From the NCBI GenBank assembly GCA_021772955.1, contig JAJFKZ010000107.1, positions 1-36,509 of the forward strand: a stretch of DNA of 36,509 nt, written 5' to 3'. This stretch comes from Gammaproteobacteria bacterium. GTDB taxonomy: Bacteria; Pseudomonadota; Gammaproteobacteria; Xanthomonadales; Wenzhouxiangellaceae. Below the pieces are notes generated by a model, which was not told the origin of the DNA, searched no databases, and saw only the letters and a list, made by a program, of their open reading frames with translations. The position numbers and the translations under genes are program-made. Position 1 is the first letter of the stretch. Each line of letters begins with the position of its first letter. Positions 1-36,509 of this stretch are shown here, piece by piece.

Positions 1-651
1 CTGCGATATAACCCGTATGTGCAGACCAACTTCATTCTTGGGCTGGACTGTGATCAGGGACCTGAACCGTTTGAGTTGACCAAGCGTTTCATGCAGATGA
101 CCCCCGGTGCGTACCCGGCGTTTTCGCTGTTTACCGCCTATGGTCGGGCCGCGCCGCTGAATCTGGATCTGCAGCGCGCCGGGCGCGTGTTGCCAGTGCC
201 GTTTCACTTTCTCAACAGCACGCGCGGCATGAACATCAAGCCGAAAAATTACGACTGGGCCGAGTTTTACGGTTATGTGCGTGATCTGACCGCGTTTGCA
301 CACTCCTGGAATCAGGTGCGGCGCCGGTTCCAGGCCGGCAATGGACTGCTGCCCAAAGCCATTGGCGCGTTGCGCGGCGCCACCTCGAAAAAAGTGAGGT
401 ACTACGCATTGATGGAAAAAATGATGCGTGAAGACAGCGGGTTTCGTGCCTATTTTGATGGCGCCAGCAGCAAGCTGCCACAGTTTTTTCGTGAACGCAT
501 TCGTAATGATCTGGGGCCATTCTGGGCGCATTTGCCGGAAGGTGCGCTGGAGCATGATGCCTACGCCTATCTGCAAGGCCATGATGCTGCGCAAGCTGAA
601 CTACAGGCCAGGTCGGCACCCGGGTCAGTGCCGCTGGCGGTGGTTGCCTGA
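1..651 (+). CDS. B12-binding-type radical SAM protein, C-terminal part (5' truncated by window)
   Basis: The reading frame is open from base 1 (LRYNPYVQTNFILGLD), so the GTG at 19 in the ORF track is internal and the start lies outside the window. About 216 C-terminal residues remain. The stretch FILGLDCDQGPEPFELTKRF, followed by PAYSLFTAYG-like and PFHFLN segments, resembles the end of the radical SAM barrel plus C-terminal region of cobalamin-binding radical SAM enzymes. The CxxxCxxC cluster and the B12 domain would lie upstream and cannot be seen. The gene converges on the leftward glycan-type operon, with a MITE between them. The substrate is unknown, and the family call rests on remembered sequence resemblance. 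Confidence 0.6.
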   Translation: MRYNPYVQTNFILGLDCDQGPEPFELTKRFMQMTPGAYPAFSLFTAYGRAAPLNLDLQRAGRVLPVPFHFLNSTRGMNIKPKNYDWAEFYGYVRDLTAFAHSWNQVRRRFQAGNGLLPKAIGALRGATSKKVRYYALMEKMMREDSGFRAYFDGASSKLPQFFRERIRNDLGPFWAHLPEGALEHDAYAYLQGHDAAQAELQARSAPGSVPLAVVA

Positions 652-682: not shown

Positions 683-932
683 GCTAGCCCGCCTATTGCA
701 CGAGGACGGACGTTCAGGTAAGAAAAGCGTACGCACACCAATAAGTTATAACGAAATTGATCGAAATTGCAAAAGTACAGTTTGTCCTATTCGGTGTTAG
801 GAAAAATCTGCCGTCGTATTTTGGCACATCCTTCTTGAACCTTAGCCAGCTATGGCTCTGCGGACGATGCACCAAACTACTTTGGCAGATTTCCCCTAAA
901 ATCCGAATCCCTCATGCAATATGCGGGCTAGC
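683..932 (+). mobile_element. MITE family 1, copy A (long form, 250 bp)
   Basis: Near-perfect terminal inverted repeats bound this element: GCTAGCCCGCCTATTGCACG at the left and the complement of GCTAGCCCGCATATTGCATG at the right, 21 of 23 bases matching. It encodes no protein. Inside is an inverted pair, AAAATCTGCC and GGCAGATTT, separated by about 70 bp. The same element recurs at 23062-23250 (short form, about 97% identical where shared) and inverted at 15529-15758 (diverged long form). No clear target duplication is visible. It fills the convergent gap between the radical SAM gene and the NTP-transferase gene, where its hairpin could end transcription from both sides. Confidence 0.82.
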
Positions 933-958: not shown

Positions 959-1834
959 TCAGATCTGCTCGCGTTTGGCGAGAATGCCCTCGGAAAGTGC
1001 AAACGAATTAGGGTTGTCGACATCGATGGGGCCAAATGCGTAAGGTAAAAACACCGCTTCCATGCGCAGCCCCAGATTCCGGCCGATGCGGCGTATGAGT
1101 TTTTCGGTGGTGGTGAGTTTGAACTTGTAGAGCAGGAATGGCATCACCCCGAAAGCTTTGAGAATGCGCCAGTGCTTTTTCCCAAACTGTCCGCCAGAGC
1201 GGAATATGTTTACACCGCGCAAGGTTTTACGGTTGTGCAAGAAGTACAGATTGCAGGATGAAAAGCCACCATCTTGCAGCCAGTGCCAATGCAGGCCGGA
1301 ATCAGGAATGGTTGCGGTCACATGCTCTTCTTTGGTCAGGCCCAAAGCAACATCACAATCCAAAGCACTGCTTTGCGTAACAAAGTCCTTAATCAGTTCG
1401 GCTGTGTGCAGGGCATTGTCGCCGGTCGTGATCAACAATGGCCAGTTCGCATCCTCAATCAGCTCGGCGGCAACCAGCACACTGTCGGCCAGATTGCCCG
1501 CGGCTGGAACGGCGACTACCGTTCCGGCCTGCAGCCAATCGCGCAAGCGTGCGCCATCCTGTAATACGGTAGCCTCATCAATGCAGACATAGGCCATATC
1601 CACACAGCCACTGTCCAGCAATGCGGCGATCACTCGTTCGAGCATGATCTGGCCATGAATGTGCAGCATGCATTTGTGCGTTACATCAACATTGGCACAC
1701 AATGGATCAGGCTCGCCTGGGCGGCGGGCCGCCATGATCAGAGCGCTGGCTTTATTCGCCTTGCCACTGGTCTTGCCACTGGTCTTGCCATCAGACTCGG
1801 GCCGGTGAGCGCTGCTGGTCTGTTGTTCTGGCAT
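959..1834 (-). CDS. MobA-like NTP-transferase (nucleotidyltransferase) family protein
   Basis: This protein of about 291 residues has the order expected of a GT-A nucleotidyltransferase. It has an N-terminal ALIMAARRPGEPDPLC stretch where the LxAGxGxRM nucleotide loop would be, a middle segment LLITTGDNALH, equivalent to the metal-binding D-containing strand, and a basic C-terminal extension. The loop is atypical, so activity is uncertain. The ORF track starts at 1894 inside the upstream gene. AAGGAG precedes ATGs at 1840 and 1834, and 1834 has the better spacing (8 nt), leaving 28 bp after the MmgE/PrpD stop. It is the last gene of the leftward operon. Near the start is a 12-bp tandem repeat encoding KTSGKTSGK. 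It may activate a sugar or cofactor as a nucleotide derivative (inference). Confidence 0.65.
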   Translation of the reverse strand: MPEQQTSSAHRPESDGKTSGKTSGKANKASALIMAARRPGEPDPLCANVDVTHKCMLHIHGQIMLERVIAALLDSGCVDMAYVCIDEATVLQDGARLRDWLQAGTVVAVPAAGNLADSVLVAAELIEDANWPLLITTGDNALHTAELIKDFVTQSSALDCDVALGLTKEEHVTATIPDSGLHWHWLQDGGFSSCNLYFLHNRKTLRGVNIFRSGGQFGKKHWRILKAFGVMPFLLYKFKLTTTEKLIRRIGRNLGLRMEAVFLPYAFGPIDVDNPNSFALSEGILAKREQI

Positions 1835-1862
1835 GTTCATTGCTCCTTTTGGTCGGTCTTGC

Positions 1863-3287
1863 TCAAGTTTCAGGTTTGCTGCTGATGCTGGCAAAATAGC
1901 GACTCATGTCACTGCTGTGTGGCAGCTGCGCAAACGTTAGCAGAGCCTGACGCAGCGCCTGTTGATGGTCGGCATCAAGGTGGCCACTGCTACACTCATC
2001 AAACTTGTCCCAGTACTGGGAGGTGGGGAAGGGTGCGTCGATACTGCCCTTGGGCAGCATTGTTTGACTGCGCCAACTGCGGCCATCGTAGCCATGCGCG
2101 ATCAGTACTGTTGGCGTGATGCTTTCCAGTGCGGCAATGGGGTGCAGTTCAATCTTGTCGCAATGCCTGAGTACGCTGCTGCGGTGTACAGCACTGTCGG
2201 TGAAATCATCAAGACGGGCCTGGCCCGTTTCCAGCAGACAAGCCAGTGCGTATTGCATGGAAAACTTGGCCTGCAGGCCGGTCGCGGGTCGGTGATAGAA
2301 CAGATTGTTGAGATTGGCCGCCGGGGCATGCACTTCAATGCGTTGAATCTGATCGCCGCCGAGTTGTTGTTGCTGCATCAAATCCTGCAACAAATCCATG
2401 GCTCGATGCGCGCTGCCGCAGTTGGGAAAGCGTTTCACACGGTAGCCGTGATGGGTGATTAACAATGGCTCACCCACCGGCTCCAGATTAAAACTGAGCG
2501 TTTGACCGTGCTCGGCACCGTTCAGCTCGGCCTTGAGCTGCTCGCGATCGGGACCCACCATCAGCGTGTTCATGCCATGCTTGCCATCCAGCGTGTGCAA
2601 GCCAGCCTGCATGCCCTGCTGTGCCAGCGTGGCTGCCATGATACCGCGCATCGCAGCCAGGCCAGCATGCAACGGTTTGGTCATGGTGCCAAATTGGGAC
2701 ATGAAACCTGACGCCATGCTGCTGGCCAGTGACAGTGCATGCGTGCATTGTGCAGCGTTCAGCCGCAACAGGCGGGCGCAGGCAGCGGCGGCCCCGAACA
2801 CGCCGACTGTGGCGGTAGCGTGCCAGCCGCGGTCGCGGTGGGTCGGATTGACGCCCTGGCCGATGCGACCCATGATCTGCAAACCCACAATATAGGCATC
2901 CAGCACCTGGGCACCTGACGATTGCTCGGCATCGGCCAATGCCAGAATGGCCGGGTACAGCACGGTAGAGGCGTGCGCCTTGGGCGGATCAAAATTGTCG
3001 TCATAATCCAGCGCATGGCCTGCCGTGCCGTTCACCAGTGCGGCCCATGGCGCTGGTAATTTGTTATCCAGGCCGGTGACATAGGCGGATTTGATGGCCT
3101 GTTGACCCGACCACAACTGTACCGATTGCAGTGCTATCCGCGTGGCTGGCTCGACCGCGCCGGGGATCATCACCGCCACGGTGTCGATCAACTCGCGGTG
3201 CGCGCTGATAAGCGCAGCTTGCGGCCAGTCGTTGTCAGCTGAGGCCACCCATTGCGCATAGACCTGAGTCGGGGTCAATTTGCTCAT
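1863..3287 (-). CDS. MmgE/PrpD family protein
   Basis: At 474 residues it has the usual length for the MmgE/PrpD family (2-methylcitrate dehydratase, cis-aconitate decarboxylase, iminodisuccinate epimerase). Diagnostic segments are NGTAGHALDYDD near residue 85, where the family carries a conserved HxxDxDD-like motif, GWHATATVGVFGAAAA in the helical domain, and KPLHAGLAA near residue 200. The enzyme normally dehydrates, decarboxylates or epimerises small carboxylic acids. It begins 6 bp after the UDP-sugar dehydrogenase stop and precedes an NTP-transferase, so it is probably co-transcribed with sugar genes. That is not the usual prp (propionate) setting: prpB, prpC and prpR are not nearby. The substrate cannot be given from sequence. 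Confidence 0.85.
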   Translation of the reverse strand: MSKLTPTQVYAQWVASADNDWPQAALISAHRELIDTVAVMIPGAVEPATRIALQSVQLWSGQQAIKSAYVTGLDNKLPAPWAALVNGTAGHALDYDDNFDPPKAHASTVLYPAILALADAEQSSGAQVLDAYIVGLQIMGRIGQGVNPTHRDRGWHATATVGVFGAAAACARLLRLNAAQCTHALSLASSMASGFMSQFGTMTKPLHAGLAAMRGIMAATLAQQGMQAGLHTLDGKHGMNTLMVGPDREQLKAELNGAEHGQTLSFNLEPVGEPLLITHHGYRVKRFPNCGSAHRAMDLLQDLMQQQQLGGDQIQRIEVHAPAANLNNLFYHRPATGLQAKFSMQYALACLLETGQARLDDFTDSAVHRSSVLRHCDKIELHPIAALESITPTVLIAHGYDGRSWRSQTMLPKGSIDAPFPTSQYWDKFDECSSGHLDADHQQALRQALLTFAQLPHSSDMSRYFASISSKPET

Positions 3288-15528: not shown

Positions 15529-15758
15529 GCTAGCCCGAATACTGCACGAGAGATTCGGATTTCAGGGACAATCTGCCTAAGTGGTTTGTTGCATCGTCCG
15601 CAGAGCCATAGCTGGCTAAGCCTCAAGGAGGACGTGCCAAATTACGACGGCAGATTTTTCCTGAAACCGAATGGACAAACTGTACTTTTACCATTAACTT
15701 ATTGGCGTGTTTAGGCTTTTCCGCAGTAGATCAGCGTTAAGTCCGACAAGCTGCTAGA
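15529..15758 (-). mobile_element. MITE family 1, copy C (diverged long form, inverted)
   Basis: Read on the minus strand this is a diverged copy of the element at 683-932. It shares the end GCTAGCCCGAATACTGCACG, the GATTCGGATTT and AATCTGCC blocks, the long loop segment (CAGAGCCATAGCTGGCTAAG) and the TGTACTTTTACC region. The other end, near GCTAG at 15753-15757, is worn, so that boundary is approximate. It occupies the rodZ-hisS gap (15365-15812). The rest of the gap holds no gene that I can see. The hisS promoter must lie inside or beside it. Confidence 0.72.
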
Positions 15759-20801: not shown

Positions 20802-21994
20802 TGGCGAAAGCACAGTCATTGCAACAACTGCTGCTTGCTGCGCGCGAACAAATCAGCGAAGTGGACGTTGACCAGGTGCAACAGCTGCAGGATTCCGGCT
20901 GGCAGGTGGTGGATGTGCGCGAAACCGAAGAGCTGCAGCAAGGCATGATCCCAGGTGCTTTGCATTGCTGTCGCGGGCGACTGGAAATGCAATTGCCGGA
21001 CCTGATCAGCACTCCTGAGCAGCCACTGTTACTGACCTGCGCACAAGGCGGCAGATCGTTGCTGGCGGCACGCAGCCTGCAGCAAATGGGTTTTCAAAAT
21101 CTGCTCAGTTTGCGTGGTGGCATGCAGGCCTGGTATCGCTCCGGTCAACGCGTTGATCAGCCAGCCAGTGCGTTTGCCGATAACTCGCTCAGCAGCTATC
21201 AACAGCAGCGCTACGCACGTCATTTGAGCTTGCCGGAGGTGGGGGCGGCCGGCCAGCAGCGACTGCTTGACAGTCGTATGCTGATTATTGGTGCCGGTGG
21301 GCTCGGCAGCCCGGCTGCTTTGTATCTGTGTGCTGCTGGTGTTGGTAGCATCGGCATCGTCGATGATGATCGAATCGAGCTGTCGAACCTGCAGCGCCAG
21401 GTGCTGCACAGCGAGGCCATGTGTGGCGAGCTGAAAACCGAATCGGCACGCGCCCGACTGAAACAGTTGAACCCGCATACACAAATTCAAACACATACGC
21501 TGCGACTGGCCGCCGACAACGTCAGCGATATCATCAATGATTATGATCTGGTTATCGATGGCAGCGACAACTATGCCACCCGTTATCTGCTCAACCGCGC
21601 CTGTGTGCAGCAGCACAAGCCCATGGTCTATGCCGCCGTCGAAGGGTTCAGCGCACAGGTGGCGGTGTTCTGGCCTGCTGCCGCGCGGGATAATCCCTGC
21701 TATCAATGCCTGTTTCCGCGTGCGGGTGATCGGCCATCCTGCGTTGCCGCTGGCGTGCTGGGCGTAGTGCCCGGTTTGGCTGGCATGCTGCAGGCCATTG
21801 AAGCGATCAAAATTTGCCTGCAGCAACCCTGCACACTGACTCGCAAGCTGCTGCAGATCGATACCATGCATTCCGAGTTCCGGCTTAGCAGCATGCGCGC
21901 TGATCCTGCCTGTAGCATCTGTGCCGGTGAATCCGGCCGGACCAGTCAGGCAGCTGCGCAACAACACTCAGCGCAGCCGGGGGTATCGACATGA
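20801..21994 (+). CDS. Rhodanese-ThiF/MoeB fusion (sulfur-carrier adenylyltransferase)
   Basis: An N-terminal rhodanese domain (about 1-115) has VVDVRETEE and the active loop CAQGGRS, whose Cys would carry persulfide. It is followed by an E1-like MoeB/ThiF domain. That domain has YARHLSLPEVGAAGQQRL, the ATP loop IIGAGGLGSPAAL, DNYATRYLLN, a zinc-binding pair CYQCLF and CSIC, and a conserved PSCVAAGVLG cysteine. It should adenylate the C-terminal Gly-Gly of a ThiS/MoaD-type carrier and perhaps add sulfur. The rhodanese-first order is the reverse of MOCS3/MoeZ-type fusions. It is tightly packed between der and folD. The carrier partner is not in the window. Confidence 0.88.
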   Translation: MAKAQSLQQLLLAAREQISEVDVDQVQQLQDSGWQVVDVRETEELQQGMIPGALHCCRGRLEMQLPDLISTPEQPLLLTCAQGGRSLLAARSLQQMGFQNLLSLRGGMQAWYRSGQRVDQPASAFADNSLSSYQQQRYARHLSLPEVGAAGQQRLLDSRMLIIGAGGLGSPAALYLCAAGVGSIGIVDDDRIELSNLQRQVLHSEAMCGELKTESARARLKQLNPHTQIQTHTLRLAADNVSDIINDYDLVIDGSDNYATRYLLNRACVQQHKPMVYAAVEGFSAQVAVFWPAAARDNPCYQCLFPRAGDRPSCVAAGVLGVVPGLAGMLQAIEAIKICLQQPCTLTRKLLQIDTMHSEFRLSSMRADPACSICAGESGRTSQAAAQQHSAQPGVST

Positions 21995-22896
21995 ACCGCG
22001 CCGTGGCGCAAGTGCTTGACGGACGCGCATTGTCTGCGAGCATGCGTGATGACATCAAACTGGCCATCGACCGCCATCTGCAAGGCGCTGACCAGGCATC
22101 GGCATTGCCCGAGAGATTGCCCCGGCGATCGGCTCCCGGATTGGCCGTCATACTGGTAGGCGATGATCCGGCCTCAGCAGTGTATGTGCGTAACAAGCGC
22201 CTGGCTTGTGAACAAACTGGCATTCGCTCGAAATCGTTGCATTTTCCAACTTCGGTCACCACCGCAGAGTTGGTGCAGGCAGTGCATCAGCTGAATCATG
22301 ATGATTCTATCGACGGCATTTTAGTGCAGTTGCCCTTACCATCTCAGGTCTGCGAGCAAGCGGTGCTGGAGTGCATCGACGTGGGCAAGGACGTGGACGG
22401 ATTCAATGCCATGAACATCGGTCGACTGGTGTTGCGTGATCGAGGCATTCGTCCATGTACACCACGCGGGGTGATGGCATTGTTGCATCATCATGGCATC
22501 AGCACGCGCGGTATGCATGCGGTGGTTGTAGGCGCGTCGAATATCGTCGGCCGACCCATGGCGCTGGAATTGCTGCTGGATGGCGCTACGATAACTGTTT
22601 GTCATCGCTTCACCCGCGATCTCGAACATCATGTGCGCCAGGCCGAAATTCTGGTCACAGCGGTTGGCAAAACCGGGATCGTGGATGCCAACTGGCTGCG
22701 CGCTGGCGCGGTGGTGGTGGATATTGCCATGAACCGCGATGCCGACGGTCAGTTGTGTGGTGATCTGGATGCCGAAATCGTGCGGCGCAAGGCCAGCTGG
22801 TATACACCAGTGCCTGGCGGCGTGGGGCCGATGACCGTGACCATGCTGTTGTTGAACACCATCCAGGCGGCGGGTATTGCGATGCCTGCTACCTGA
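21991..22896 (+). CDS. folD: Bifunctional methylenetetrahydrofolate dehydrogenase/cyclohydrolase
   Basis: FolD interconverts 5,10-methylene- and 10-formyl-tetrahydrofolate. ILVGDDPASAVYVRNKRLAC holds the catalytic Tyr and Lys. GILVQLPLP and VGKDVDGFNAMNIGRL follow. The NADP site is VVVGASNIVGRPMALELL, and the end is TPVPGGVGPMTVTMLL. The 301 residues include a slightly long N-terminal loop (about 30-48). The ATG overlaps the previous stop (ATGA), with GGGGG upstream. Confidence 0.95.
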   Translation: MNRAVAQVLDGRALSASMRDDIKLAIDRHLQGADQASALPERLPRRSAPGLAVILVGDDPASAVYVRNKRLACEQTGIRSKSLHFPTSVTTAELVQAVHQLNHDDSIDGILVQLPLPSQVCEQAVLECIDVGKDVDGFNAMNIGRLVLRDRGIRPCTPRGVMALLHHHGISTRGMHAVVVGASNIVGRPMALELLLDGATITVCHRFTRDLEHHVRQAEILVTAVGKTGIVDANWLRAGAVVVDIAMNRDADGQLCGDLDAEIVRRKASWYTPVPGGVGPMTVTMLLLNTIQAAGIAMPAT

Positions 22897-23061: not shown

Positions 23062-23250
23062 ACTAACCCGCCTATTGCACGAGGACGGACGTTCAGGTAA
23101 GAAAAGCGTATGCACACCAACAAGTTATAACGAAATTGATCGAAACTGCAATAGTACAGTTTGTCCTATTCGGTGTTAGGAAAAATCTGCCAAAGTAGTT
23201 TGGCAGATTTCCCCTAAAATCCGAATCCCTCATGCAATATGCGGGCTAGG
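23062..23250 (+). mobile_element. MITE family 1, copy B (short form, 189 bp)
   Basis: The ends and flanking halves are about 97% identical to the copy at 683-932, but about 61 bp of the middle is missing. As a result AAATCTGCCAAA and TTTGGCAGATTT come together around GTAG (23183-23210) to form a perfect 12-bp hairpin. The left end is slightly worn (ACTAACCCGCC). It lies between the convergent folD and parC genes. The rest of that 464-bp gap (22897-23061 and 23251-23360) shows no gene. A 21-codon frame at 23274 reads like a signal-peptide fragment but is probably chance. Confidence 0.82.
23183..23210. terminator. Perfect 12-bp hairpin in MITE copy B, possible two-way terminator
   Basis: AAATCTGCCAAA, GTAG, TTTGGCAGATTT. 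Both arms end in A or T runs, so either direction of transcription meets a stem with a U-rich 3' arm. It lies between convergent folD and parC. A terminator role is an inference. Confidence 0.45.
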
Positions 23251-23360: not shown

Positions 23361-27526
<4,166 letters not shown>

Positions 27527-29854: not shown

Positions 29855-29954
29855 TTTAGGGGATGTCCGGTCTTGCGACCGGACAGTGACCCCACGGCAC
29901 ATCAAATGAATGACGGCCTTATTGTAGCAACGGCTCTCACCCCGATTGGCTACA
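29855..29954 (-). ncRNA. tracrRNA of the type II-C CRISPR system
   Basis: On the minus strand the anti-repeat (29956-29921) can pair with the CRISPR repeat. A 21-base block (29934-29954) and a 7-base block (29922-29928) match, separated by a 5-base mismatch bulge; overall 29 of 36 bases match. The tail GCTACAATAAGGCCGTC then GATGTGCCG is nearly identical to the N. meningitidis tracrRNA as I remember it. A terminal stem GTCCGGTC-GCAA-GACCGGAC (29865-29884) closes the RNA, flanked by GGGG and CCCC that can extend it. The 3' end is approximate because no long T run follows. It binds crRNA and Cas9, and RNase III usually trims the duplex. Confidence 0.9.
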
Positions 29955-29960
29955 TGGACA

Positions 29961-29989
29961 ACTATACAGGGAGTGAAGGGAAAAGTGAA
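29961..29989 (-). promoter_or_regulatory. Predicted tracrRNA promoter overlapping the cas9 start
   Basis: On the minus strand TTCACT (29989-29984) and TATAGT (29966-29961) lie 17 bp apart. The expected start, near 29954, coincides with the 5' end of the anti-repeat pairing region. The -35 box contains the cas9 GTG start codon (29985-29987) on the opposite strand. Confidence 0.6.
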
Positions 29990-32900
29990 CAGTTTTGACA
30001 AAAAAACAACTCGCCATTACGTACTCGGCCTGGATATCGGAATTGCATCGATTGGCTGGGCGGCACTTAACAGTAATGACGGTAATGTTGTAGATGGCAT
30101 TATCGATCTCGGTGTTCGAATCTTTGAACGTGGCGAAACGGCCAAGAAAGGTGAGTCACTTAATCTTGCCAGAAGGCTTGCCAGAGGGACTAGAAGGCGC
30201 TTGCGAAGGCGTGCACACCGCATGTTGAGATTGAAAAGATTGCTATTACGCGAAGGATTGGTAAAACAAGAACATCTGGATTCAAGTGGCAATATCAAGT
30301 TCAGCGCAGATCCATGGCGTTTGAGGTCCGAAGGGCTTGACAGACTATTGACACCATTTGAGTGGGCGGGGGTGATCTATCACATGATCAAACACCGCGG
30401 CTATCTTTCGACACGAAAAGCCGACAATAACAGCGCGGATAATGATACCGGCAAGGTATTGGTTGCGCTCAAGGCCATGAACGAGCGTCTGGAAGCGGGT
30501 GGTTGGCGCACAATTGGCGAAATGGCTTATATGGATAATGAAGAGTTTGGCCATGCCATCCGCAACAAACAGGGTGATTACAGGCACTGCTTTGATCGTA
30601 AGATGCTGAGAAGTGAGTTACAGCTTCTGGCTGACAAGCAGCATGCATTTGGCAATCCGCACACAGATGATGCTTTTAGAGAGCAGATCATTACTCTCTT
30701 AATGCAGCAACGTCCTGCCTTATCGGGCAAGAATCTGCTCAAAATGCTCGGTAAATGTACCTTCGAGAAGCACGAGTATCGAGCGCCAAGAGCGAGCTAT
30801 AGTGCGGAAAGATTTGTCTGGCTGTCCAAACTCAATAACCTTCGTCTACTCAACAGTGATCGCAGCCGTCGCTCACTGACCGCAGCAGAAAGACAGGTAA
30901 TCATGGATTTTCCTTACGAGCGTGTCGTTGTCAAGTATGCACAAGTACGCAGAGCCTTAGACCTGCCAGACGATATCCTGTTTGTGGGTCTGCGTTATCG
31001 CGATGACGAGAACGCAGAAAACGAAAAGCTTATCGAACTGAAAGGTTGGCACAAAATGAAAAAAGCACTCTCGGATGCCGGTCTGACAACTGAATGGCAT
31101 GGAATTGCCAGCAGAACCGAAGAGCTTGACGAATTGGCCTACGCATTGAGCGTATTCAAAGACGATAAAGAGATTAGTACCCATTTGCGGGCAAAAGGGT
31201 TTGATGATGTTGTGATTCAAGCCTTGCTGTCTGTCAACTTCAGCAAATTTTCTCACCTATCGTTGCTTGCGCTGCGCAAGCTGATTCCACACCTGGAAGC
31301 AGGTATGCGCTACGACGAGGCGTGTACTGCAGCGGGCTATGATCACAGTTTGCCTATCAATATTGATAAATCTGATCTATTGCCGCCAATCAATGCTGAT
31401 GATGTGCGTAATCCGGTAGTGATGCGTTCACTCTCGCAGGCGCGCAAGGTGATTAATGCCATCATCCGTGAATATGGTCAGCCATTGCGCGTGCATATTG
31501 AATTGGCAAGAGATTTGAGCAAACCAAAGATCGAGCGAAATCGCATAGAGCGTGAACAGAAAAAGTGGCGCGATCACAAAGAAGGCCTGGTCAAGGAATA
31601 CATTGAGAATCTAGGTGCAGAGCCAAGTGGTAAGGACTTGCTGAAATACCGACTTTACAAAGAACAGAACGGCAAGTGTGCTTATTCGCTGCAATCTCTT
31701 GAGCTAGATAGGCTGACAGAAGCCGGTTATGCAGATATCGATCATATTTTGCCTTACAGCCGAACTTTCGATGATTCATTGAACAACAAGGTGCTGGTGC
31801 TCGGCAAAGAAAATCGCAACAAAGGCAATAAAACACCGTGGGAATACTTCGGCAGCAGCGATGAACAGCGCTGGGTGTTCTTTGAGGCCTGGGTTCGCTC
31901 GAACCCTGGGTTTAAACAGGCCAAACGCAATCGCTTATTGAAACGTTCCCTCACTGAAGAAGATCAACAGGATTTTCGCGAACGGCACCTCAATGATACG
32001 CGCTACATCGCGCGCTATCTGAAAAACTTCGTTGAACAAAATCTGCAGCTATCCGGTGATGCTCAACGCGTTCGAGTGGTTTCCGGCAGTTTGACCAGTT
32101 TTCTGCGAGCACGCTACGGCTTGATCAAAAAACGGGAAGAAAGCGACTTGCATCACGCAATGGATGCGGTGGTTGTCGCTGCAACCACCAACAGCATGAT
32201 CAAGCGCTTGTCGGACTACGCCAGATTTGATGAGCTTGATCGGGTCAAAATCACAGGTTATATCGATCCTGAAACTGGCGAAGTGCTGGATATCAGCACG
32301 CTACGGAAGCTGGAGCAGCAGTTCCCTGAACCATGGCCTAATTTCAGATACGAATTGCAGGCCAGATTGAAACCAGACCCGCAACGTGCATTGCGAGCCA
32401 TAGACGGCTGGCAGCACCGGGATATTTCCTGGATTCGGCCGATCACAGTTTCGCGCGCACCTCGACGCAGTGTTACCGGCCCTGGCCATGCAGAAATCAT
32501 TCGCTCTGCCAAACGACTTGACGAGCAGATCAGCTACACCCGCGTACCGTTGACCAAATTGACTTTGCCCATGTTAGAGACGATACATGGTCGTGAACGT
32601 GACAAACCCCTTTACGAGGCATTGAAGTCTAGGCTTTCAGAGCATGACGGCAAGGCGGACAAGGCATTTGCCGAACCGTTTTATAAACCTGCGGCGCCGG
32701 GCAAGCAAGCGCCCAGAGTCACGGCGGTCAAGATTGAGGCCATCCAGAAAAGTGGCATACCAATCCGAGACGGTGTTGCGGATAATTCATCCATGGTAAG
32801 GGTGGATGTCTATCGTAAAAACAACAAGTACTGGCTGGTGCCGGTGTATGCCTGGCAGATAGAAAAAAGCATCATACCGATGCATGCTGTCGTTGCCTAT

Positions 32901-33209
32901 AAACCGGAGCAAGAATGGGAGCCAATGGAAGACAATGCACAGTATTTATATCATTTTCAATATGATGATGTAGTCCAGATTGATACTGGAAAAGTCAAGA
33001 TATTTGGTTATTTTAATGGTATGAATCGTTCCACTGGCGCTATCAATATTGAGGTACATGATAGGAACCAATTGATTGGTAAAAAGGGATTATTCAGGGG
33101 CGTTGGTGTCAAGACCGCAAAATCGCTGCAAAAGTACCAGATTGATGTTCTGGGCAAATACTGGGTGATCAAAAAGGAGGCACCGCCATGGGCTGGCGCA
33201 GTATCATGA
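29985..33209 (+). CDS. cas9: Type II-C CRISPR endonuclease Cas9
   Basis: With GTG 29985 as start the protein has 1074 residues, close to NmeCas9 (1082), and its first residues (VNSFDKKTTRHYVLGLDIG) line up with that enzyme. The TTG start in the track would lie inside the tracrRNA anti-repeat. GAAGGG precedes the GTG by 4 nt. Order: RuvC-I with Asp17, arginine-rich bridge helix (RRLARGTRRRLRRRAHR), recognition lobe, RuvC-II Glu506 (VHIELARDL), HNH His587 (DIDHILPYSR), RuvC-III His724 and Asp727 (HHAMDA), and a C-terminal PAM-interacting domain. All nuclease residues are present. At the NmeCas9 PAM contacts Q981, H1024 and N1029 it has Ala971, Asn1014 and Ala1019, while the T1027 equivalent is kept. 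cas1 overlaps its end by 22 bp. Confidence 0.96.
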   Translation: MNSFDKKTTRHYVLGLDIGIASIGWAALNSNDGNVVDGIIDLGVRIFERGETAKKGESLNLARRLARGTRRRLRRRAHRMLRLKRLLLREGLVKQEHLDSSGNIKFSADPWRLRSEGLDRLLTPFEWAGVIYHMIKHRGYLSTRKADNNSADNDTGKVLVALKAMNERLEAGGWRTIGEMAYMDNEEFGHAIRNKQGDYRHCFDRKMLRSELQLLADKQHAFGNPHTDDAFREQIITLLMQQRPALSGKNLLKMLGKCTFEKHEYRAPRASYSAERFVWLSKLNNLRLLNSDRSRRSLTAAERQVIMDFPYERVVVKYAQVRRALDLPDDILFVGLRYRDDENAENEKLIELKGWHKMKKALSDAGLTTEWHGIASRTEELDELAYALSVFKDDKEISTHLRAKGFDDVVIQALLSVNFSKFSHLSLLALRKLIPHLEAGMRYDEACTAAGYDHSLPINIDKSDLLPPINADDVRNPVVMRSLSQARKVINAIIREYGQPLRVHIELARDLSKPKIERNRIEREQKKWRDHKEGLVKEYIENLGAEPSGKDLLKYRLYKEQNGKCAYSLQSLELDRLTEAGYADIDHILPYSRTFDDSLNNKVLVLGKENRNKGNKTPWEYFGSSDEQRWVFFEAWVRSNPGFKQAKRNRLLKRSLTEEDQQDFRERHLNDTRYIARYLKNFVEQNLQLSGDAQRVRVVSGSLTSFLRARYGLIKKREESDLHHAMDAVVVAATTNSMIKRLSDYARFDELDRVKITGYIDPETGEVLDISTLRKLEQQFPEPWPNFRYELQARLKPDPQRALRAIDGWQHRDISWIRPITVSRAPRRSVTGPGHAEIIRSAKRLDEQISYTRVPLTKLTLPMLETIHGRERDKPLYEALKSRLSEHDGKADKAFAEPFYKPAAPGKQAPRVTAVKIEAIQKSGIPIRDGVADNSSMVRVDVYRKNNKYWLVPVYAWQIEKSIIPMHAVVAYKPEQEWEPMEDNAQYLYHFQYDDVVQIDTGKVKIFGYFNGMNRSTGAINIEVHDRNQLIGKKGLFRGVGVKTAKSLQKYQIDVLGKYWVIKKEAPPWAGAVS

Positions 33210-34114
33210 TCAGCAAGGGTGCAGATTTGCGCCTGAAGCATGGCCAGTTGAAGATTTGCCGTCAAGATAAAGCGCCCATCACGCTGCCACTGGAGGATAT
33301 TGACAGCATGGTGCTGGATACCGCACAGACAAGACTCAGCGGACAATTGTTGAGTGCCTGCATGGAGCAACAGTCTGCAGTCTACGTCTGTGATAAAAAG
33401 CATATGCCTGCTGGTGTGCTGCTGCCATTTAACAGCCATCACCGCGGCCTCAAGGTCTTGCGGCGCCAGCTGAATATGGGCAAACCATTGCGCAAACGTC
33501 TGTGGCAGCAACTGGTGCAGGCCAAGATCAACAATCAAAGCGAGTTGCTGCTTCGTCAGAAGCATGCAACACAGGCCAGAATGCTGACGAGAATGGCCAG
33601 CAAGGTACGCTCTGGCGATCCTGACAATATTGAAGCCCCGGCTGCGGCAGCCTATTTTCGTGTTTTGTTCGGCCAAGGCTTTGCTCGACGCAAGCCGGTA
33701 TGGATCAATTCTGCACTGAACTACAGTTACTGCCTGATTCGTGGTTTAATCGCAAGGTCGCTGGTGGGTTCAGGTTATCAACCAGCTTTGGGGCTGGGGC
33801 ACAACAACGAACAGAATGCATTCAATCTCGCCGATGATTTGCTGGAGCCCTGGCGTGCCATTGTCGATGGCTGGGTGATCAGATTGATGCAAGAGATGGA
33901 TGATGATGATCAGAGCACAGATTTGCTGCCCGCTCACAAGCAGCAGCTGGTAGCCAACCTGACTGCCGAAGTGATATTGCAAGGCGATTGTTATGGTGTC
34001 AGTGCTGCGGCCAATGAACAGGTCAACAGCCTGAGTCGTGCAATCAAGTGCAAAGATACCAGATTATTGTTACATCCAGAAGCTTTGCAACATGATCTGA
34101 ACGATGGGCAATGA
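33188..34114 (+). CDS. cas1: CRISPR spacer integrase Cas1 (type II)
   Basis: Cas1 with Cas2 inserts new spacers. The 308 residues match type II-C Cas1: [20 protein letters not shown] and [11 protein letters not shown] in the N-terminal beta domain. The metal-binding residues Glu149 ([15 protein letters not shown]), His205 ([18 protein letters not shown]) and Glu220 (LLEPWR) are in place. AAAGGAGG with about 7-nt spacing precedes ATG 33188. It overlaps both cas9 (22 bp) and cas2 (11 bp), so the three genes are surely one operon. Confidence 0.95.
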
Positions 34115-34436
34115 GACGCGACGTTTTATGCGCTTGATGGTGCTGTTTGACCTGCCGACGACATCAGCGGCATACAAGCGCGCTTATGTGCAGTTCCGTA
34201 ATTATTTGCTGAAAGATGGCTATGTCATGGTGCAATGGTCGGTATATGCGCGCATCGTCAATGGTATTGATGCCGCAGAAAAGCATCTGCAAAGGCTGCA
34301 GAAGCACTTGCCCAGAGAAGGCTCGATCCGCTGCCTGCAGATTACCGAGAAGCAATTCACGCAAATGAAGATTCTGTTGGGTGAACGCACAAATCAGGAA
34401 AAAATCGTCAACAATGAACAGTTTCTGTTGTTTTGA
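34104..34436 (+). CDS. cas2: CRISPR-associated protein Cas2
   Basis: Cas2 dimerises as the platform of the Cas1-Cas2 integrase. The 110 residues have the ferredoxin-like core [13 protein letters not shown] with the conserved Asp, and [24 protein letters not shown] follows. The N-terminal [10 protein letters not shown] resembles N. meningitidis Cas2, which supports ATG 34104 over the internal ATG at 34128. It overlaps cas1 by 11 bp. The array begins 63 bp after its stop. Neither cas4 nor csn2 is present, which fits subtype II-C. Confidence 0.94.
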
Positions 34437-34450
34437 ACCGGTTTTGCGCG

Positions 34451-34490
34451 CGGCAAAAGTGCTCTGGAGCAAGCTCCAGAGCGGCTTTGC
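34451..34490. terminator. Two-way hairpin between cas2 and the CRISPR array
   Basis: GCTCTGGAGC (34461-34470) and GCTCCAGAGC (34473-34482) form a perfect 10-bp stem around AA. GCAAA on the left and TTTGC on the right can extend it. The short A and T tracts on the two sides could help end the rightward cas mRNA and the leftward crRNA precursor. T runs are short, so efficiency is uncertain. Confidence 0.55.
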
Positions 34491-34499
34491 GGGCGAGGT

Positions 34500-36509
34500 A
34501 TTGTAGCCAATCGGGGTGAGAGAGGGAGCTACAACTTCTACGTGCAATCGAACAATCGTTGGTATATTGTAGCCAATCGGGGTGAGAGAGGGAGCTACAA
34601 CATATTCGATCTGCGCTGCTGTCCTTGCTTTATTGTAGCCAATCGGGGTGAGAGAGGGAGCTACAACTCGCAATTCACAAGGAATCAGGCTGGATCGATT
34701 GTAGCCAATCGGGGTGAGAGAGGGAGCTACAACTCCCTGAACAACCTGCAGGACTCAGGGTTCATTGTAGCCAATCGGGGTGAGAGAGGGAGCTACAACG
34801 CATAGCGTTCAGGAACTCCAGCCTTAATGATTGTAGCCAATCGGGGTGAGAGAGGGAGCTACAACGCGCGGCGCGTTGGTCTGTGTGCGCCTGGTATTGT
34901 AGCCAATCGGGGTGAGAGAGGGAGCTACAACAAAGTTCGGCGCAGTCGGATTAACGGACTGATTGTAGCCAATCGGGGTGAGAGAGGGAGCTACAACAGT
35001 GGTGTCGCCGTAGTGACGCATGGCCATATTGTAGCCAATCGGGGTGAGAGAGGGAGCTACAACGGACGATGTGCTGTGCACACTGGACGCCGAATTGTAG
35101 CCAATCGGGGTGAGAGAGGGAGCTACAACGTGATATATTATGTATAAAGCACACAGAGAATTGTAGCCAATCGGGGTGAGAGAGGGAGCTACAACCAGCG
35201 CGGCCACGGTGATCAGCCTCGGCGCATTGTAGCCAATCGGGGTGAGAGAGGGAGCTACAACTTCACCTTCGGAGTAGACCGATGAAAAAAGATTGTAGCC
35301 AATCGGGGTGAGAGAGGGAGCTACAACGCGGTAGATGGTGGGGTCGCTGCCAAACGCATTGTAGCCAATCGGGGTGAGAGAGGGAGCTACAACTATGAAA
35401 GTAAATCTGGCGAAAGAGGAATTATTGTAGCCAATCGGGGTGAGAGAGGGAGCTACAACTTGTGGCATAACATCATAAACATCCGTCTGATTGTAGCCAA
35501 TCGGGGTGAGAGAGGGAGCTACAACGGTTGGTTTACGAAGGTCGCGGCAAGGTGCATTGTAGCCAATCGGGGTGAGAGAGGGAGCTACAACCGCGTGTAC
35601 AGTTATTATAACGGTGACGCGATTGTAGCCAATCGGGGTGAGAGAGGGAGCTACAACGTTAAGCGACTATAAATGGGTGTGGGATACATTGTAGCCAATC
35701 GGGGTGAGAGAGGGAGCTACAACCCTTTTATTACTGTTCAGCCCAAATAAACCATTGTAGCCAATCGGGGTGAGAGAGGGAGCTACAACCACGCCTTTGG
35801 TGCTAGTGTTGGTAAATGGATTGTAGCCAATCGGGGTGAGAGAGGGAGCTACAACCTTGCTGCCGCGCTGGTACAGCCATGCCATATTGTAGCCAATCGG
35901 GGTGAGAGAGGGAGCTACAACAGAAAGTTATGAACATTATGAACATTATTAATTGTAGCCAATCGGGGTGAGAGAGGGAGCTACAACTGTCCAGTTGATG
36001 GCACGCAGTGGCTCGCCATTGTAGCCAATCGGGGTGAGAGAGGGAGCTACAACCACCACATACGGAGTGTGCTTGCCCATCCAATTGTAGCCAATCGGGG
36101 TGAGAGAGGGAGCTACAACGCCGGTGACCCGCGCGGCCCAGCGCTGCAGATTGTAGCCAATCGGGGTGAGAGAGGGAGCTACAACATACTCGGCTTTGCT
36201 GGCAACCAGCTGCAGATTGTAGCCAATCGGGGTGAGAGAGGGAGCTACAACCTTGCGTGTTGCCGTCTGCCGCAAGCTGGTATTGTAGCCAATCGGGGTG
36301 AGAGAGGGAGCTACAACAGTGTCAACTCGCTGAGGCTGAATCGCTTGATTGTAGCCAATCGGGGTGAGAGAGGGAGCTACAACGACACCAGCGCAAGGGT
36401 TGCTGTTGGCCATATTGTAGCCAATCGGGGTGAGAGAGGGAGCTACAACTCAGAATCCGGTGCCCCTTGCATGACGTCTATTGTAGCCAATCGGGGTGAG
36501 AGAGGGAGC
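34500..36509 (-). CRISPR. Type II-C CRISPR array, 31 repeats and 30 spacers, truncated by window end
   Basis: Repeats of 36 bp start at 34500 and recur exactly every 66 bp (34500 + 66n), each followed by a 30-bp spacer. The 31st repeat (36480) is cut at base 36509. All repeats look identical, including the one next to cas2. On the minus strand the repeat begins GTTGTAGCTCCCTCTCTCAC and ends GGCTACAAT, the N. meningitidis/type II-C pattern, and it pairs with the tracrRNA when read that way, so crRNAs come from the minus strand. The TACAAT end matches the repeat-borne -10 box known in N. meningitidis, although the TGn extension is imperfect here. All 30 spacers differ. The far end is not seen. 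Confidence 0.98.

Follow-up and report, generated by a model that had tools for sequence, protein, structure and literature searches.

Three related repeats in the window

The DNA that was analysed (the window, 36,509 nucleotides in full) is part of a 2.63-Mb, 176-contig assembly (G000), which is 88% complete and whose contigs break at repeats. Three related repeats are present, as a preliminary description of the window had claimed (Table 1). The first (copy A) is located between the convergent genes 1–651 (plus strand) and 959–1894 (minus strand), an unannotated gene and a MobA-like gene, and the third (copy C) between the convergent genes 21991–22896 (plus) and 23361–25646 (minus), FolD and DNA gyrase/topoisomerase IV subunit A. 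The second copy, which is inverted, is flanked by tandem genes (rodZ-like and hisS-like), so that two of the three copies are found between convergent genes, in agreement with what had been reported. No promoter-like sites were found around the window copies. Positions 29946–36449 of the window are occupied by a Type II CRISPR-Cas locus with Cas9 (1087 aa, TIGR01865), Cas1 and Cas2; the array, in which at least 30 repeats recur every 66 bp, matches Rfam CRISPR-DR34.

Table 1. Positions and strands of the repeat copies in the window and of their parts.
Feature	Position	Strand	Remarks
Copy A, long form	684–931	+	CTAG target duplications at 684–687 and 928–931
Left TIR, copy A	688–706	+	CCCGCCTATTGCACGAGGA
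Right TIR, copy A	909–927	−	CCCGCATATTGCATGAGGG, read on the minus strand
Conserved structured core, copy A	776–909	−	RNA-like strand is minus
Diverged chimeric copy, inverted	15530–15757	−	family-1 core and TIR from 15534; family-2 end opposite
CTAG flanks, chimeric copy	15530–15533 and 15754–15757		
Structured core, chimeric copy	15552–15684	+	RNA-like strand is plus, since the copy is inverted
End of second MITE family, chimeric copy	15714–15753	−	CAGCTTGTCGGACTTAACGCTGATCTACTG... on the minus strand
Chimera junction	15714–15722		near GGCTTTTCC
Copy C, short form	23063–23249	+	61-bp apex deletion; flanks CTAA/CTAG
Perfect 12-bp hairpin, copy C	23183–23210	−	product of the 61-bp deletion

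Copies A and C are 95.2% identical (189 aligned bases), and the identity of copy A to the inverted copy is 81.3%. A near-identical pair and a diverged copy had both been described and both exist, but the identity of the pair falls short of the 97% given, the diverged copy is the one at 15529, and the earlier labels A, B and C fit only if B is the copy at 23062 (copy C here). The terminal inverted repeats (TIRs) match at 21/24 positions in copy A and 19/24 in copy C; the 23-bp TIRs ascribed to all three copies are not common to all, since the copy at 15529 has one such end only and its other end derives from a different MITE family. The short copy was correctly recognised as lacking 61 bp. The loss joins AAATCTGCCAAA and TTTGGCAGATTT around GTAG, and compared with shuffled sequences copy C folds with a z-score of −5.7 on the plus strand and −7.1 on the minus strand. 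On the minus strand its hairpin is followed by a T-run (TTTTTCC) and resembles an intrinsic terminator facing the gene at 23361–25646.

A MITE family with IS1380-type ends

A search of the genome with the element gave 45 matches. The TIR core, with at most two mismatches, gave 185 matches against 3 for a reversed-pattern control in the genome-wide search that the preliminary description had proposed, amounting to ~90 copies; the ends of several contigs lie within a copy. The elements are 145–260 bp long and have no transposase-sized ORF. Two main subfamilies, with lengths of 248/187 and about 251/167 bp, are told apart at the TIR (TATTGCA or TATTTCA). The short form has one deletion junction that is common to at least 10 copies at differing places, which indicates a single 61-bp deletion that was later amplified; the distinction of long and short forms is therefore sound, and the short form has moved as a subfamily in its own right. 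Young (2–4% diverged) and older subfamilies coexist, as expected for more than one wave of movement, but the diverged window copy from which such waves had been deduced is a chimera and not merely older. Enlarged forms of 515–708 bp (L049, L063, L066, L067, L069 and L070) have extra palindromic repeats inside the core and look nested.

The tetramers flanking the elements conform to YTAR. The left and right tetramers are equal in 33 of 58 elements, against 20.6 in shuffles (0/10,000 as high), and no element showed agreement over 5 bp; the duplication is exactly 4 bp. Head-to-tail elements share a common CTAG (L012), which is expected if the duplicated target of one element serves as the target of the next. 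The closed genome G161 (L284, C1 at about 662–663 kb) has three head-to-tail copies with a 247-bp period and CTAG joints.

Mobility was further assessed in G001, a relative from the same genus (98% complete), in which the element had no match. The element is absent from the orthologous gap at the 15529 site, the gap at the 23062 site is filled by different sequence, in which a 40-bp palindrome has a related TIR, and at the site of copy A the synteny stops at the element. These gaps show variation in element location, not at base precision, and the outcome named in the preliminary description as refuting, a fixed repeat that does not vary among relatives, was not observed; a precise empty site was not obtained in this relative, which is too diverged outside genes. 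Near 115.9–116.1 kb of C16 in G001 (L211), two related TIRs abut to form a 40-bp palindrome (CTAACCCGCATTATTCA...TGAATAACGCGGGCCAG), which may be a minimal solo element.

A TIR scan of a GTDB-based genome collection yielded 99 stretches from many phyla. Two of them contain a complete transposase gene that is enclosed by ends of this kind and flanked on either side by CTAG: a 1.59-kb element of a Kordiimonas MAG (L093, PF13701 E 1e-157) and a 1.73-kb element of the Osedax symbiont Rs1 (L149, PF13701 E 2e-140), both with an IS1380 family transposase (NF033539). Cognate autonomous elements with MITE-type ends thus occur in other genomes (L093, L149 and L264). The resident IS1380 of G381 (485 aa, NF033539 393.9 bits) ends in CCCGGATTTCTCACC, a 15-bp variant in common with the MITE ends of that genome, where CCCGCATATTKCAYGA is usual. 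This shared variant implies that the MITE ends track those of the local IS. No intact IS1380 gene was found in the G000 assembly (88% complete, with breaks at repeats), in which a 134-aa C-terminal remnant is the only trace. The remnant (L182, G000:C9:7154–7525) lies close to a contig end and has an unrelated end; it was rejected as the direct source because its end does not match. IS701-type (PF13546) and IS4/IS5-type (PF01609) transposases were rejected as partners, since neither type is present in the genome. With an IS1380 remnant only, and without PF13546 and PF01609, the partner of the G000 copies was lost, is unassembled or is foreign.

The repeat is a genuine, recently active IS1380-type MITE family, of which the ends are ordinary and the core is unusual. 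Its MITE nature, already proposed, is borne out by the TIRs, the 4-bp YTAR duplications, the dispersed copies and the cognate transposases with identical ends. A fixed, non-mobile REP/BIME-like repeat that does not transpose would agree with the missing intact transposase, but it is refuted by the target duplications and the locus variation, including absence from the same-genus relative, by CTAG-to-CTAG unit insertions beside other MITEs and by the identical ends of IS1380 elements, and we regard it as extremely improbable. In the mobile family, an IS1380-family DDE transposase, supplied in trans, would recognise the CCCGC... ends, and the MITE would insert at YTAR with duplication of those 4 bp.

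The MITE has the same ends and the same 4-bp target as the IS1380 insertion sequences found here, but in contrast to these it has no transposase, is 145–260 bp long and contains a hairpin core without a recognised counterpart in the IS. IS1380 is related to the eukaryotic piggyBac superfamily, for which the target TTAA and variants including TTAG and CTAA have been described (PMC10813416); all of these are YTAR, as for the MITE. The plasmid and viral collections gave no match to the element or the TIR, and searches of the literature with the exact TIR and core words gave no relevant paper.

Placement between genes

For classification of the copies by their position relative to genes, an ad hoc gene caller was trained on G000. 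Twenty-two of 46 classifiable copies (about 48%, P about 1e-8 to 1e-7; the gene calls are approximate, and 18 copies without flank were left unclassed) are situated between convergent genes; for comparison, convergent gaps make up 12.6% of all gaps and 13.9% of the intergenic length, and contain 14.4% of the intergenic YTAR sites. The placement noted for two window copies thus extends genome-wide. According to the same caller no gene is interrupted by a copy, though 483 of ~823 YTAR sites lie in coding sequence. With a second caller the convergent counts were 21/42 against 94/510 for G000, with one copy called inside an ORF; the excess in other genomes was weaker (18/56 against 127/637, P=0.03). 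In tandem contexts there was no orientation bias (12 copies with their plus strand co-oriented with the flanking genes, 7 opposite), so no orientation requirement in cis is visible.

The preliminary description had suggested that the copies act as two-way terminators. A mobile bidirectional transcription terminator, domesticated between convergent genes, would account for the convergent excess, in G000 as well as in the other genomes, and for the terminator-like hairpin with U5 on the minus strand of copy C. Against it, compact intrinsic terminators were found on neither strand of ordinary long copies (0/24 and 0/15 in the two subfamilies), and in short copies of the first subfamily in 4/11 on the minus and 1/11 on the plus strand; a bidirectional arrangement, with a GC stem and a U-tract on both strands, was not observed. 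The terminator idea survives for some short copies only, and in one direction only. The convergent excess is most simply explained by insertion tolerance downstream of genes, which suffices and accounts for the placement equally well, and we consider a domesticated two-way terminator improbable. Such tolerance would arise because no promoter or operon is broken at these sites; in addition, a stop codon can fall on the YTAR target and would then be restored by the duplication.

The hairpin core and its ends

The usual view of bacterial MITEs is that of transposon debris in decay, with an interior specific to each lineage. In the present family it is the interior that is conserved and that shows strand-specific covariation of the RNA type in many genera, and the ends are the changing part. 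When copy A was aligned to homologues in other MAGs, the internal sequence was conserved, and 27 of 64 pairs were changed on both sides. For the 136-nt core a covariance model was built (R2; a first model, R1, was replaced because its structure was lost through decayed copies). This model detected the core (~136 nt) in 27/369 genomes and, among the genera sampled in the class, in 24/272, frequently with many copies. No Rfam family matched the core. Covariation was determined from 30 aligned copies of different lineages with a median pairwise identity of 68%. Both-side changes were seen in 38 of 44 base pairs, and the number of both-side-changed cells was 186, against 47 in shuffles and 32–41 with slid partners (these statistics are not tree-aware).

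The two strands of the core differ. The minus strand of copy A folds better in 30/30 lineages, by a mean of 16.5 kcal/mol, where composition-preserving shuffles give 6.3. Wobble pairs on the minus strand comprise 104 G-U against 14 A-C cells (26 pairs against 2, P 3e-6), counted with a minus-strand structure that was derived from the same alignment; with a plus-strand-derived structure the direction was the same (47:16). The young G000 copies show symmetric decay (A-C 23, G-T 21) with only 6 compensated cells, which argues against a simple mutation bias as the source of the asymmetry and against rapid correction of one arm by the other. The G000 copies of the older subfamily are asymmetric (A-C 40, G-T 13), which was counted against the structured-RNA explanation.

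DNA palindromes as such give no reason for a strand preference. In principle, the element could be nothing more than an IS1380 MITE with a palindromic core that is maintained as DNA only, by hairpin or cruciform formation and arm-to-arm correction, and that has no RNA role; MITEs are commonly palindromic, and the compensated cells are mostly full Watson-Crick swaps. This is difficult to reconcile with the strong strand asymmetry in wobble pairs and folding energy and with the near absence of compensation in young copies. Moreover, the short copies without apex amplified well, which indicates that the covarying apex is dispensable for transposition. We therefore judge preservation as DNA only to be unlikely, although far from negligible, and favour as the likely explanation a non-autonomous IS1380-type MITE with a conserved hairpin core acting as a structured RNA. 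Judged from the sequence comparisons, the core is probably a structured RNA that is carried by the MITE.

According to the structured-RNA explanation, the internal imperfect hairpin (about 136 nt) would form as RNA upon transcription of the element in the minus direction of copy A, and would be kept by long-term selection, with ends that tracked, or were swapped with, those of local transposons. The most likely task of the hairpin RNA would be at the 3' end of transcripts entering the element (insulation, 3'-end protection or RNase III processing), which would make the MITE a low-cost guest. If the RNA reading is true, the element is an uncatalogued mobile structured RNA that depends on IS1380 transposases for its dispersal, and the dozens of natural insertions per genome allow its effect on the ends of transcripts to be tested directly by RNA-seq.

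Correia/NEMIS, ERIC and other bacterial MITEs are short multicopy elements with TIRs whose transcripts form long hairpins, and RNase III cleavage of NEMIS RNA has been proposed (PMC2229807). The present MITE is likewise short and multicopy, with TIRs and a predicted long-hairpin fold, but it differs from these in its ends and target (YTAR, IS1380) and in a core that is kept with compensatory changes across 24 genera and on at least two unrelated end types. QMITE1 and QMITE2 of Coxiella also have full and short forms; they comprise about 50 copies, are a source of small RNAs and are often in 3' regions. In contrast to the MITE described here they have variable direct repeats; QMITE1 orthologues are not reported outside Coxiella, and the paper makes no mention of IS1380 (PMC5896051).

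The copy at 15530–15757 bears on a possible exchange of ends. It starts with CTAG and a family-1 TIR and finishes with AAGTCCGACAAGCTG-CTAG. The latter is the end of a second family of MITEs, about 170 bp in length, which is present in G000 and common in G001. The sequence GAAAAGC occurs near the junction in both families, from which we infer that the chimeric copy likely arose by a microhomology join. Generally, the core lies within CCCGC-type ends that track the local IS1380; the R2 model also hits elements of G304, G195 and G091 (L253, L256 and L250) with family-2-type, CAGYCTGTCGGACTT-like ends. The occurrence of the core with both end types, in the chimera and in these three genomes, indicates that core and ends are separable. 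More tentatively, and with some doubt on our part, the core may persist independently as a structured RNA and spread, within Gammaproteobacteria and also outside them, on borrowed ends of different transposons, in which case the chimeric copy would be a snapshot of an end swap. Members of the second family (L208, L209 and L210 in G001, L014 and L048 in G000) insert at YTAR and have the ends CAGCCTGTCGGACTT.
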